This document shows, one piece after another, positions 2,924-63,240 of a DNA stretch of 64,000 nucleotides; position 1 is the stretch's first letter, and each line of letters opens with the position of its first letter. Position numbers and translations under genes: made by a program. Origin of the DNA: Phycisphaerae bacterium RAS1 (GTDB lineage Bacteria; Planctomycetota; Phycisphaerae; UBA1845; Fen-1342); NCBI GenBank assembly GCA_007859745.1, contig SMLU01000001.1, forward strand, positions 3,038,001 through 3,102,000, read 5' to 3'. Under the pieces are notes generated by a model. The model ran no database searches. It worked only from the letters and a program-made list of their open reading frames with translations, and was not told the DNA's origin.

Positions 2924-2995
2924 TCGACGATCGTAGGCAATCGGCGCCACACGGGACTGCGACGCCAACCCGCCGCTTGGCGCGGCGGGTTCGGA
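2924..2995. repeat. 100-bp double-palindrome element, left-truncated copy
   Basis: This copy has the middle (CGACGATCGT...GGCGCCACAC) and the full right arm (CCGCCGCTTGGCGCGGCGG, TTCGGA) of the family seen complete at 42309-42407; the left palindrome is missing. Confidence 0.8.
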
Positions 2996-8054: not shown

Positions 8055-8217
8055 TCGGAACCCGCCGCGCCAAGCGGTGGGGTGATGTCGCCGCCGCCTG
8101 GGTCGCCAGATGCTTGGACGTCAACCCGCCGCTTGGCGCGGCGGGTTCGGAAATACAGGGCGACCGCGGCCCGTCGGAGGCAGCCGCCGCTTGATCGCCT
8201 GCCGCGGCGGGTTCGGA
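8055..8217. repeat. 100-bp double-palindrome element plus an extra half arm
   Basis: The complete element is 8055-8151 with diverged middle. A further right-arm fragment (CGGCGGGTTCGGA) is at 8203-8217. It fills most of the 350-bp gap between the hydrolase and the sigma factor. Confidence 0.85.
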
Positions 8218-20343: not shown

Positions 20344-20441
20344 TCCGAACCCGCCGCGCCAAGCGGCGGGTTGACGATCGTGAGCGCGCGGCGCCTCACA
20401 GGCCGGGGACGTCGACCCGCCGCCTGGCGCGGCGGGTTCGG
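20344..20441. repeat. 100-bp double-palindrome element
   Basis: Complete copy. Left palindrome CCCGCCGCGCCAAGCGGCGGG, a middle TTGACGATCGTGAGCG...CACAGGCCGGGGACGTCG, and right palindrome, bounded by TCCGAA and TTCGGA. It lies between fliS and the DUF1570 gene. Confidence 0.92.
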
Positions 20442-20505
20442 ACAAACACGCCAGCCGAGCCTGCCCCCCGAGCGCCGGCGGGACGCTCGCGGTCCCGGAG
20501 CCGCG

Positions 20506-24156: not shown

Positions 24157-24254
24157 TCCGAACCCGCCGCGCCAAGCGGCGGGGTGACGATCGTAAGCGC
24201 GCGGCAGCCATGGGCCCCGAACGTGAACCCGCCGCTTGGCGCGGCGGGTTCGGA
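24157..24254. repeat. 100-bp double-palindrome element
   Basis: Complete copy, flanked by TTTTCC on the left. Middle segment diverged after GATCGTAAGCGCGCGGC. Confidence 0.9.
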
Positions 24255-29727: not shown

Positions 29728-29760
29728 TCCGAACCCGCCGCTGGGCGCGGCGGGTTCGGA
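29728..29760. repeat. 100-bp element family, minimal 33-bp copy
   Basis: The outer arms TCCGAACCCGCCGC and GCGGCGGGTTCGGA fused around GGGC: either the two outer halves of the element after internal deletion or a solo palindrome. Confidence 0.8.
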
Positions 29761-39103: not shown

Positions 39104-39222
39104 TCCGATCCCGCCGCGCCAAGCGGCGGGGTGACGTCCGGGCGTGTTTGCGGCGACGCCTCCTGGACTGACGCCGATCGCCGTACGCACGTCAAAGCGC
39201 CGCTCGGCGCGGCGGGTTCGGA
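39104..39222. repeat. 100-bp double-palindrome element, long variant
   Basis: 119 bp, with a different middle (GTGACGTCCGGGCGTGTTTGCGG...CGCCGTACGCACGTCAAAG) shared with 40261-40379: a sub-family of two that flank the heme oxygenase locus. Confidence 0.88.
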
Positions 39223-39251: not shown

Positions 39252-39905
39252 CTACCCGCGCCGCGGCGCGACCAACGCGTAAATCTCCGCGTCCAGCGCC
39301 GCGACACCCTCAAACGTCGCCTGCGCAGCGGCCACCATCGCGTTCTGGTCGCTTGGCCCGAAGCCGGCCGCGTTCATGCGCTGCTTGAATTCCAGCCAGA
39401 GCGCCCGCTGCTCTTCGCCGTGCGGGTCGAGATAGCGCATGCCGTCCTGGTCCAGACCGTATGCCGGGCGCAGTCGTTTGGCGATGAAGCGCGATCCGTT
39501 CTTGCTGCCCTCGAATACGTAGTAGCACCCCAGCAGCGCCAGCGGATTCTCCGCCGCCAGCCGCTCGATCGTCGCGCAAAGCCCCGCTGTTGCTGGGAGC
39601 GGCGATACGCTCGCCGGATCGACGCCGAAATGCAGCAGATCCGCCCTCAGGTTCTCCTCCTGAAACAGCCGCTCCGGCGCAATCTGCCCCACGACGCTGT
39701 GACGCGCGGCCAGCGCCTGCATGCGCCTTTCCAGATTGCGGTGAACACAGTAACGCTGCTCCAGCAGCCGTACGAACGCGGCAAGCGGCAGGCTGCCGGC
39801 CGCCAGCGCCTGTTCCAACTCTCCCAGCTCAGCGCGCTGGTGGTGAACCGCCGTCTCGGCACGCAGCCGCGACATGACATCATGCGAAACCGTCTCAGTG
39901 ATCAT
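39252..39905 (-). CDS. heme oxygenase (biliverdin-producing)
   Basis: 217 aa. ATG 39905 chosen because GGAG lies 6 bases upstream; ATG 39926 has its GAGGG too close. Opens O2-dependently the heme ring to biliverdin, CO and Fe2+. The proximal-helix pattern LRAETAVHHQRAE carries the heme-ligand His (His21 or His22). The distal helix motif is YVFEGSKNGSRFIAKRL, a GSxxG variant. Used for heme iron acquisition or for bilin chromophore supply to phytochromes; no phytochrome lies nearby. Co-transcribed with the 48-aa membrane protein just upstream. Confidence 0.85.
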   Translation of the reverse strand: MITETVSHDVMSRLRAETAVHHQRAELGELEQALAAGSLPLAAFVRLLEQRYCVHRNLERRMQALAARHSVVGQIAPERLFQEENLRADLLHFGVDPASVSPLPATAGLCATIERLAAENPLALLGCYYVFEGSKNGSRFIAKRLRPAYGLDQDGMRYLDPHGEEQRALWLEFKQRMNAAGFGPSDQNAMVAAAQATFEGVAALDAEIYALVAPRRG

Positions 39906-39929
39906 GTGTGCTCCGTTAGGATTCATCCC

Positions 39930-40260: not shown

Positions 40261-40379
40261 TCCGAACCCGCCGCGCCAAGCGGCGGGGTGACCTTCGGGC
40301 GCGTTTGCGGCGGCGCGTCTTAGATTGACGACGGTCGCCGAACGCACCTCACCCCGCCGCTGGGCGCGGCGGGCCCGGA
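40261..40379. repeat. 100-bp double-palindrome element, long variant
   Basis: 119 bp, same sub-family as 39104-39222. Confidence 0.88.
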
Positions 40380-42308: not shown

Positions 42309-42407
42309 TCCGAACCCGCCGCGCCAAGCGGCGGGTTGACGATCGTAAGCGAGTCGCGCCACACAGGCCGGGGACGTCAACCCGCCGCTTGGCGCGGCGG
42401 GTTCGGA
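42309..42407. repeat. 100-bp double-palindrome element (best consensus copy)
   Basis: TCCGAACCCGCCGCGCCAAG begins it and its right half is nearly the mirror image, with TTGACGATCGTAAGCG and ACACAGGCCGGGGACGTC between. Bounded by TTTCCG and CGGAAAG. Confidence 0.93.
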
Positions 42408-43541: not shown

Positions 43542-43597
43542 CGTCGGACCTCTGCGTCCGACGGCAAGACGTAGCGTCGGACCTCCGCGTCCGACGG
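43538..43597 (+). repeat. REP-A pair, left flank of RAYT 1
   Basis: Two GTAG-headed hairpins, GTAG + CGTCGGACCTCTGCGTCCGACG at 43538 and GTAG + CGTCGGACCTCCGCGTCCG at 43571, in plus orientation, ending 9 bp before the RAYT start. Confidence 0.93.
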
Positions 43598-43606
43598 AGT
43601 GACGAA

Positions 43607-44131
43607 ATGGACATTGATGCCCAAGAGTGCATACTCGCCGTCGAGTTGGGCCGAGCCCTGCCGGTCACCTACGGGCGCGGCCGCGCTCGTCGCTTGTCGA
43701 CGGATCTGTATCGGGGCGATGTCTTCGTTCACTTCACGATCTGCGCCGAGGAGTCCGGTTCGCGTCCGTTCGCGGATCATGCCGTCGCTCGCATGGTGTG
43801 TAAGTCTGTCGAGCACGCCGCAGCCATGCTCGACCACCGGATCGCCGCGTACTGCCTTATGCCGGATCACATGCACTTGCTCGTCTCGGCCGGATGTTCC
43901 GGCGTTTCGGCGCTGGAACTGCTCAGGCGATTCAAGAGCTTCACAACGGCCGAGTATCGGCGGATGACGGGGGACGCGCGGCTTTGGCAGTATTCGGCCA
44001 GAGATCGCGTCATTCGCCGCGATGAACGACTTGAAGAGATTGCGGCGTACATTGCGAATAACCCGGTGCGCGCGGGGCTGGTGAGCGCGTGGATGGAGTG
44101 GCCCTATACGCGCGTGTGTGTTGGGTCGTAG
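43607..44131 (+). CDS. REP-associated tyrosine transposase (RAYT 1)
   Basis: 174 aa. Y1-transposase fold of the IS200/IS605 superfamily: [29 protein letters not shown] with the HxH metal/His pair (His88, His90), [16 protein letters not shown] and the RAYT-typical ending [20 protein letters not shown]. RAYTs are single-copy, domesticated relatives that bind and cut REP hairpins near a GTAG tetranucleotide. Here two REP-A hairpins lie on each side, in opposite orientation, so gene plus REPs form a symmetric unit. It is inserted between nuoB and nuoC. Tyr117 is a candidate nucleophile, not certain. Confidence 0.93.
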
Positions 44132-44138
44132 ATTAAGA

Positions 44139-44195
44139 CGCCGTCGGACGCGGAGGTCCGACGCTACGCCGTCGGACGCGGAGGTCCGACGCTAC
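44139..44195 (-). repeat. REP-A pair, right flank of RAYT 1
   Basis: Two hairpins in minus orientation, each ending CTAC (complement of GTAG), at 44139-44167 and 44169-44195. They directly precede the Shine-Dalgarno of nuoC. Confidence 0.93.
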
Positions 44196-48908: not shown

Positions 48909-49400
48909 ATGCTAGACGACGCCAACAATCTCGATCGACTTGCCACTTGGGGGCGTAGCCGCGCGGTTCGACTTCACGCGGACGCCTACTCGGGCGTCGC
49001 ACCGATTCATCTGACGATCTGCGCCGCCGATGGCCGGCCGTTCGAAGACGCCGCCCTCGCACAAACGGTTTGCACGGCGTTCGAGCGCGTCGCCGCCGCC
49101 GGCGAACTCGAACTTTCGGCGTACTGCCTGATGCCGGATCACCTGCACGTGCTGATCCGCCCGATGTCGGGTTTCGGAATCGACGAGTTTCTTCGGCGAA
49201 TGAAGAGTTACACGACGCGCTGGCACCAACGCGCGACGGGCCGCCCCGTACTCTGGCAGCGATCCGCGCGGGATCGAGTGTTGCGGGCGAACGAAAGGCT
49301 GGCGACCGTTGTGGCGTATATCGCGAACAACCCGGTTCGCGCCGGACTCGTTTCCGCGTGGACGCAGTGGCCGTATACTCGCGTGTATTGTGAGATTTGA
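48909..49400 (+). CDS. REP-associated tyrosine transposase (RAYT 2)
   Basis: 163 aa, ATG 48909. Same family as RAYT 1, about half identical by eye in the core: [27 protein letters not shown] with His78/His80, FLRRMKSYTTRWHQRATG, VLWQRSARDRVLRANERL and [14 protein letters not shown]. The RAYT 1 Tyr117 aligns with His106 here; Tyr101 is the nearest Tyr, so the nucleophile needs checking. Flanked by REP-B hairpins in the same symmetric layout as RAYT 1. Located between nuoE and nuoF. Confidence 0.93.
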   Translation: MLDDANNLDRLATWGRSRAVRLHADAYSGVAPIHLTICAADGRPFEDAALAQTVCTAFERVAAAGELELSAYCLMPDHLHVLIRPMSGFGIDEFLRRMKSYTTRWHQRATGRPVLWQRSARDRVLRANERLATVVAYIANNPVRAGLVSAWTQWPYTRVYCEI

Positions 49401-57975: not shown

Positions 57976-58075
57976 TCCGAACCCGCCGCGCCAAGCGGCT
58001 GGGTGACGCACCGTTCGAACCGAGCGCCGCGCGTATCCAGAGCGTCAACCCGTCGCTTGGCGCGACGGGTTCGGA
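57976..58075. repeat. 100-bp double-palindrome element
   Basis: Full copy with compensating changes in the right palindrome (CCCGTCGCTTGGCGCGACGGG keeps its pairing). Confidence 0.9.
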
Positions 58076-61571: not shown

Positions 61572-61669
61572 TCCGAACCCGCCGCGCCAAGCGGCGGGGT
61601 GACAATCGCCGGCAAACGGCGGCACACAATCCGGAACGTCAACCCGCCGCTTGGCGCGGCGGGTTCGGA
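61572..61669. repeat. 100-bp double-palindrome element
   Basis: Complete copy in the divergent promoter region of the GH114-like gene and ndh; left end preceded by TTTTT. Confidence 0.92.
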
Positions 61670-63141: not shown

Positions 63142-63240
63142 TCCGAACCCGCCGCGCCAAGCGGCGGGTTGACGATCGTACGCGCGCGGCGCCTCATAGG
63201 CCGTGGACGTCAACCCGCCGCTTGGCGCAGCGGGTTCGGA
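63142..63240. repeat. 100-bp double-palindrome element
   Basis: Complete copy between ndh and the YrdC gene. Its middle (TTGACGATCGTACGCGCGCGGCGCC) matches the 20344 and 42309 copies closely. Confidence 0.92.

Follow-up and report, generated by a model that had tools for sequence, protein, structure and literature searches.

REPIN-like hairpin pairs in Phycisphaerae bacterium RAS1 and a candidate class 3 Y1 transposase

REPINs were defined by Bertels and Rainey (2011; PMC3116915), and the hairpin family of Phycisphaerae bacterium RAS1 described here resembles the REPINs and RAYTs presented in the available parts of that article in that its members are extragenic palindromes, lie mostly as inverted doublets, also form tandem arrays, and occur beside a Y1 transposase gene. 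It departs from the REPINs and RAYTs of those same parts in its foot, which is CCGA and not GTAG, in its candidate transposase (L044), on which the REP-transposase model fails, and in its singletons, which are not more diverged than the paired hairpins. With regard to the enzymes, the accessible text of a 2021 study (PMC8266576) reports that TnpAREP proteins cleave between C and T beside the REP, one of them also between C and A, and that in one such system the foot guides the choice of cleavage. A further division, into GTAG and CGTC families of REPs, of which the latter were found without a transposase, was drawn by Di Nocera (2013; PMC3733652, text available).

Another example is class 3 TnpAY1, described in the available text of Quentin (2018; PMC6006769) as rare, as occurring in Planctomycetes, Acidobacteria and Proteobacteria, and as encoded by genes flanked by atypical hairpins with a CnGA foot, which reach ~600 copies in Solibacter usitatus; its behaviour was left unclear there and experiments were called for. 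L044, whose motifs are NHVH, WA and YVREGQ, agrees with this description in its NHVH, W[TA] and Y....Q motifs, in its several CnGA-foot hairpins, in their high copy number and in phylum, and differs from the consensus YV[VI][AENY]EQ of the same text in its Y motif. L044 can be provisionally placed in class 3, an assignment that rests on the match of its motifs and of the CCGA foot to the published description. Inverted pairs, outer arms, end polarity and the matching of gene and hairpin by genome were measured here, and are absent from the portions of PMC6006769 that were available.

The repeats were noticed in a window of 64,000 nucleotides, i.e., the whole stretch of RAS1 DNA that was analysed. 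We consider it highly probable (about 0.85) that they are REPIN-like non-autonomous elements, i.e., hairpin (REP) pairs that would be moved in trans by the class 3 TnpAY1 Y1 HUH transposase L044.

An abundant family of inverted hairpin pairs

The repeat unit is a 33-nt hairpin, TCCGAACCCGCCGCGCCAAGCGGCGGGKTGACG. The initial annotation had listed eleven copies in the window, all of which were recovered, both by a check of positions and by a 33-nt weight matrix that detects each of them (Table 1). It had also described every copy as a double palindrome bounded by TCCGAA and TTCGGA. Nine are inverted pairs; those at 2924 and 29728 contain one hairpin each, and some ends vary, e.g., TCGGAA in the copy at 8055. 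The notion of a family of eleven was far too small, as the pattern CCGCCGCGCCAAGCGGYGGG, allowing at most two mismatches, finds 454 + 407 = 861 matches on the 7 contigs of the 5.5-Mb genome, against 0 + 1 for the reversed pattern used as a control. In 60 relatives there are 0-4 matches each, a background level in view of the 0-10 given there by chance controls, and the nearest genomes compared belong to other genera and lack the family. Within the genomes searched, the hairpin family is abundant in RAS1 and confined to it. Rfam gave no match at any window copy, and PLSDB plasmids contained no DNA resembling the repeats. One search behind the account of the copy at 42309-42407 scored 40 of 466 candidates.

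Table 1. Members of the hairpin family in the window, and the hairpins around the neighbouring REP-type transposase ORF (window positions; strand of a pair = end polarity, with the TCTT-type end as left)
Position	Length	Strand	Description
2924-2995		none	Truncated copy: spacer and right hairpin (2963-2995), left hairpin lost
8055-8151	97 bp	-	Inverted hairpin pair
20344-20442	99 bp	polarity ambiguous	Inverted hairpin pair
24157-24254	98 bp	+	Inverted hairpin pair, type I outer arms
29728-29760		-	Single hairpin
39104-39222	119 bp	+	Inverted pair, long 53-bp spacer, type II left arm
40261-40379	119 bp	-	Inverted pair, long 53-bp spacer; overlaps called gene start at 40325
42309-42407	99 bp	polarity ambiguous	Inverted pair, title copy
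57976-58075	100 bp	polarity ambiguous	Inverted pair; compensated T-A in right hairpin, one mismatch in left
61572-61669	98 bp	+	Inverted pair; left flank type I-like by eye, not so classed by script
63142-63240	99 bp	-	Inverted pair, type I outer arms
43543-43562			GTAGCGTCGGACCTCCGCGTCCGACG hairpin
43576-43595			GTAGCGTCGGACCTCCGCGTCCGACG hairpin
44143-44162			GTAGCGTCGGACCTCCGCGTCCGACG hairpin
44171-44190			GTAGCGTCGGACCTCCGCGTCCGACG hairpin

Finer counts come from a sample of 844 kb, made up of 39 stretches of 20 kb and the window, in which the matrix, trained on matches that include the window copies themselves, yields 171 matches at a score of at least 20 and none in the reversed sequence. 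The stretch that holds the transposase gene (L206) stands outside the 844-kb counts, i.e., base conservation, the table of thresholds and gene placement, and contributes one ordinary pair to the 58 pairs counted in 864 kb. When the arrays of the L044 gene itself are set aside, these 864 kb contain 76 clusters: 58 inverted pairs with TCCGAA facing outward, 12 single hairpins and 6 longer arrays, with no simple pair whose feet face inward. The raw share of inverted doublets (58/76) agrees with the over-representation of such doublets expected of REPINs. The density of clusters is very uneven; 8 fall in L202 and 11 in the 64-kb window, but none in several 20-kb stretches of contig C1.

Folded as single-stranded DNA, one unit forms a 10-bp stem with a 5-nt loop (z = -4.6), the 99-mer at 42309 reaches z = -14.0 and the copy at 57976 z = -6.2. 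Bases are 93-100% conserved from the T at -7 to the G at +19 (the core being numbered from 0), and information drops past GACG; since the 20-nt core was used to select the matches, its conservation is partly built in, which does not apply to the foot (-7 to -1). A count over the nine stem pairs of 84 distinct hairpins, drawn from 173, gives 8 pairing-preserving double changes, whereas 1000 shuffles of the 3' letters give 0.66 on average and never more than 4, and it gives 31 broken cells, where no shuffle has fewer than 35; as related sequences are not independent, these figures count as support and not as a probability. Compensatory changes thus support the stem family-wide. The copy at 57976, which had been singled out for compensating changes, has one in its right hairpin (C-G to T-A), but the change in its left hairpin is uncompensated.

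A Y1 transposase gene flanked by the same hairpins

The genome contains 20 places with a match to Y1_Tnp (Pfam), and the family hairpin directly flanks one of them, L044 (contig C4:523-1008, 161 aa), which lies outside the window. Its left flank carries 12 direct 41-bp copies of the hairpin, a lower bound since this array runs into the contig end, and its right flank 3 inverted copies, the outer side of these 12 + 3 copies reading CCGA or CGGA. Two further places, the window's own (L036) and L050, have one hairpin pair ~1.3 kb away, and the other 17 have no family hairpin within 1.5 kb. The L044 protein scores 23.6 bits against PF01797 (cut-off 23), fails the NCBIfam model REP_Tyr_transpos, and matches there the IS200 model only, at 21.9 bits, under the cut-off of 55. 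When it is aligned with 16 relatives (L057 being left out because of a stop within its frame), His91, His93, Trp130, Tyr152 and Gln157 are invariant in 17/17 proteins, and an extended N-terminal region with YGTWLHG (14-20) is present in all 17 rows. Some relatives depart from the class 3 motifs of the available text (PMC6006769) in the middle residue of HUH or in its Asn (NHAH, NHCH, NHIH or THVH), and the W can be followed by S or V.

The PDB entries that best match the structure predicted for a relative (L051, 54% identical; pLDDT 86.1) are 2vih (IS608 transposase), 4er8 (the RAYT of E. coli bound to a REP) and the ISDra2 transposase; these matches are modest (E 3.6e-4 to 5.2e-4, TM about 0.5), and the top 30 rows are all such transposases. 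The predicted Y1 HUH fold of this relative and the presence of hairpins with a 5' guide-like tetranucleotide liken the system to IS200/IS605 (IS608, ISDra2). Unlike in IS200/IS605, the scattered elements carry no gene, and L044 has arrays on its flanks in place of a single left and a single right end.

Another Y1 gene lies closer to the title copy. The window ORF at 43607-44131, 1.2 kb from the copy at 42309, passes REP_Tyr_transpos with 86.6 bits (cut-off 80) and might on these grounds be taken as the REP-type transposase that moves the elements. However, it has different, GTAG-footed hairpins of its own, GTAGCGTCGGACCTCCGCGTCCGACG, two direct and two inverted, i.e., twice per side, which form a separate family of 217 genome matches; it was rejected as the cognate transposase for this reason, and it is extremely unlikely that it moves the elements. 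We take the gene preceding this ORF to be nuoB-like, and the copy at 42309-42407 presumably lies upstream of nuoA/nuoB-like genes. A further Y1_Tnp gene of the window (48909-49400) scores 42.9 bits. Elsewhere, three Y1_Tnp matches (L045-L047) stand as direct repeats exactly 1578 bp apart, with L049 inverted beside them (C1:2613193-2620877), a spacing that possibly reflects recent tandem duplication. A second class 3 gene (C4:138083-138547; L207:7800-8830) is surrounded by numerous copies of a third hairpin family, CCGAGCCGCGACCGTNAGGGAGCGG, which has tandem G-A mismatches in its stem, 351 genome matches, and at least one copy in 40 of 61 genomes, RAS1 included.

The association between L044 and its hairpins has counterparts in other genomes. 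Scanning 84,980 species genomes with a pattern brought up 205 relatives; 80 loci were kept, 75 of which come from Acidobacteria or Planctomycetota according to record titles; 7 of the 80 were set aside because the gene lies too near a contig end, and one more because of a long run of N. In 66 of 72 relatives (67/73 with L044's own gene), the flanks match each other in inverted orientation more strongly than in any of 200 shuffles. Outward hairpins with the foot CNG[AT][AG][CG]C occur at 52/72 loci, and the same foot search in windows ~2.5 kb away gives 13 and 11 of 129; the foot motif is also found on the other strand at 24/72 loci, which speaks against the reading of L044 as the enzyme of the family. 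One Acidobacteria hairpin has 10-120 copies in 9 of 12 genomes and is absent from 3 (control 0), most of these 12 having been picked since the flank of their gene shows it. Likewise, the genome G021, with a gene 49% identical, contains 130 matches to that gene's own hairpin, which matches 0-1 times in five other genomes. The third family reaches at least 10 copies in 18/31 genomes with a class 3 match versus 3/30 without (Fisher p = 0.0001, kinship ignored), and in 12/21 versus 9/40 when only matches of E <=1e-20 are counted (p = 0.011, kinship again ignored). Gene and hairpin are not strictly paired, as third-family copies stay below 10 in 9 of the 21 genomes with a good match and reach at least 10 in 9 of the 40 without one.

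These flanks also bear on whether the hairpins could be CGTC-tagged REPs, a type that has no dedicated transposase. In most copies CGTC can be read from the opposite strand at the hairpin's inner side (G, A, C and G at 0.92, 0.92, 0.87 and 0.85), and in the inverted dimers of RAS1 these tags face each other, as they do in the CGTC dimers of the available text of Di Nocera (2013; PMC3733652). Such an identity is nonetheless highly improbable. The foot is TCCGA, not of the GTAG type, and the far end reads CGGA, i.e., a strongly conserved TCCGAA on the other strand, in place of the CCA tail of the CGTC repeats, which are reported in that text to flank no transposase gene, whereas the RAS1 hairpin does. 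Moreover, the relatives conserve, as judged by eye, the TCnGA side and not the CGTC side.

Spacers, outer arms and position relative to genes

The spacer between paired hairpins is most often 33 bp (29/58 pairs), and 53 bp in 5/58. With three of these five outside the window, the long form is not the two-member sub-family that had been proposed; its window copies at 39104 and 40261 do bracket a heme oxygenase gene, as had been claimed (39252-39926, minus strand; PF01126 profile). The ends are polar: in 44 of the 58 pairs the foot is bordered on its outer side by T at one end and by G at the other (G/G 5, T/T 4, other 5), and the oriented ends read TCTT followed by TCCGAA on the left, and TTCGGA followed by CAGA on the right. 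By this polarity 12/58 pairs are not orientable and 46 are, of which one lacks full flanks, leaving 45. Spacer orientation is loosely tied to end polarity (27 forward, 12 reverse, 7 unclear), a looseness that inversion between the two hairpins would explain. Polarity compared with transcription in tandem gaps gives 15 versus 6, numbers too small to read. Contig C5 carries two tandem arrays, of 8 and 18 hairpins, each ending in one inverted hairpin, and the gene between them (L210:10566-12748) is one that we take to be fabG-like.

In a subset of the elements, outer arms extend ~40 bp past both ends of the pair; they are the least explained part of the family and are not predicted by a simple REPIN model. 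Type I arms are shared by 19 of the 45 oriented elements and type II arms, which are unrelated to them, by 8, while the criteria used place 18 in neither type. The type I consensus of 30, GGCGTGGCCAAnGTTTTTGGCAGACGCCGCCGGCCGGGCCGTTTT + pair + CAGAnATGCCCGCCGAGCCTGCCAAAAnCTnTGGTCACnCC, is ~185 bp long and folds as one long hairpin (RNA parameters), outside which conservation drops; the best 40 of 488 candidates for a 182-nt type I composite are 84-94% identical, many of them over the full length, and the right arm has 39 matches genome-wide, with none in the control. All this would suit a classical MITE, a label that implies target duplication and a DDE transposase, in which the ~185-bp inverted repeat is the mobile unit and the REP pair merely its core. 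We regard such an origin as very unlikely, given that type I arms occur in those 19/45 elements only, that the tandem arrays and the REPs of the L044 gene itself carry the hairpin without outer arms, and that, of the 30 right arms read among the 39, 28 are preceded by the family hairpin within 40 nt and two by an altered form of it. Clear target duplication is likewise missing at the outer ends, where the best of 990 offset pairs gives 6/28 for 3 nt, with a mean of 0.64.

The opposite arrangement, with the arms as an independent repeat into which the pair inserted, was unsupported, as arms are found beside REPs. In the sample, right arms lie at most 80 nt from a REP in 10/10 cases at up to 2 mismatches and in 15/16 at 3; at 4 mismatches the figure is 22/38, where the reversed control itself gives 8 matches. 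Complementarity between the arms of one element is no higher than with the arms of other elements (8.74 vs 8.73). The single type I element of L217 has a near-identical ~19-bp direct repeat (ends GTTTCCGCGGCC) on either side, which could be a local duplication.

At the ends of the pairs themselves, target duplication of 2-9 nt was found in 0/58. The suggestion in the initial annotation that the repeats might be a non-autonomous MITE is borne out by the Y1 HUH gene L044, a transposase gene whose ends match, but not with respect to target duplication, nor did a DDE transposase come to notice. Single-strand mobility by Y1 HUH enzymes, as in IS200/IS605, is expected to produce none, and its absence therefore does not refute mobility. 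The lack of both base-pair covariation and terminal duplication had been named as a sign of chance similarity; the duplication is absent, but the stem does covary, with 8 double changes where shuffling gives 0.66 on average.

With respect to genes, 65 of 75 sampled clusters avoid called genes (overlap of at most 15 bp) compared with 11.6% of random stretches, the other 10 overlapping by more than 15 bp according to the home-made gene caller on which these counts rest. The claim that all window copies are intergenic holds for 10/11, as the copy at 40261-40379 overlaps a start called at 40325, which is probably over-long. The 62 placed clusters comprise 34 in tandem gaps, 23 in divergent and 5 in convergent ones, where gaps of at least 60 bp total 65 kb, 36 kb and 19 kb, respectively; divergent gaps hold 37% of placed clusters versus 30% of gap length, and convergent gaps 8% versus 16%. 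In tandem gaps, 30/34 clusters are closer to the 3' end of the upstream gene. As for replication-strand bias, the skew is too weak for placing origin and terminus.

This placement and the strength of the hairpins could be read as a role at the level of RNA or of the chromosome, i.e., as stabilisers of mRNA 3' ends, attenuators, or sites for gyrase or nucleoid proteins, with the hairpins by the transposase gene being coincidental or secondary. We consider this unlikely. The family is absent from 60 relatives and is therefore not a conserved cellular function; 23/62 clusters in divergent gaps and 5/62 in convergent ones are unlike terminators, though these shares are near those of gap lengths; and both the tandem arrays of 8 and 18 copies and the position of the hairpins directly around a Y1 transposase gene, together with the inverted flanks of 66/72 relatives, speak against it. 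Proximity to 3' ends in tandem gaps and avoidance of genes do favour such a role, but location would by itself also result if insertions into genes are selected against. The placement as a whole fits insertion followed by selection and argues against a terminator role, with no strong preference for a type of gap. The initial view that the repeats are not simply terminators is in line with these results, which describe a structured dispersed family.

Proposed mobility and its implications

If the repeats are REPIN-like elements served by L044, the pairs of 33-nt REPs inverted around a ~33-bp spacer would constitute a genome-wide non-autonomous population. By analogy with TnpAREP and IS200/IS605, each REP would fold while its region is single-stranded, and the transposase would bind the hairpin together with its 5' foot TCCGA, the CCGA of which fits the CnGA foot of class 3. 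The enzyme would then nick beside the foot through its tyrosine, and the excised pair would be joined to another single strand, a step that would produce no target duplication. The nicks are predicted at the TC/CT step in TCTK immediately 5' of the foot, at either end of the pair. Tandem arrays may be by-products of repeated strand transfer or of slippage. Binding, the position of cleavage, movement and any present activity are what we infer from this analogy. The singlets are at odds with the scheme: they are not more diverged than paired hairpins (0.50 vs 0.66 differences, p = 0.70; 12 vs 116 hairpins), contrary to REPIN theory on dead singletons, in a test weakened by the detection threshold and by the small number of singlets (12).

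On a wider scale, class 3 TnpAY1 might tentatively be seen as a second REPIN system, widespread in Planctomycetota and Acidobacteriota, independent of the GTAG RAYTs and with its own hairpin family per gene, the mobile unit here having outgrown the REP pair to become a nested inverted-repeat element with polar ends (type I, ~185 bp, or type II; TCTT left, CAGA right), a possibility about which we remain somewhat doubtful. Within the titles and abstract openings of the open-licence literature, no report of class 3 REPINs and no REPIN account of a composite of nested polar arms was found. What could prove new in the family is its nested arms and polar ends.

The repeats very probably belong to a known kind of little-studied mobile DNA, of which the RAS1 family would be a new and unusually complete member. 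The genome carries three such hairpin families together, with 861, 351 and 217 matches. A clean pairing of gene and hairpin, with hundreds of copies and many relatives, makes hairpin recognition and foot specificity testable, and the birth of a REPIN population outside the GTAG RAYTs becomes directly testable as well.
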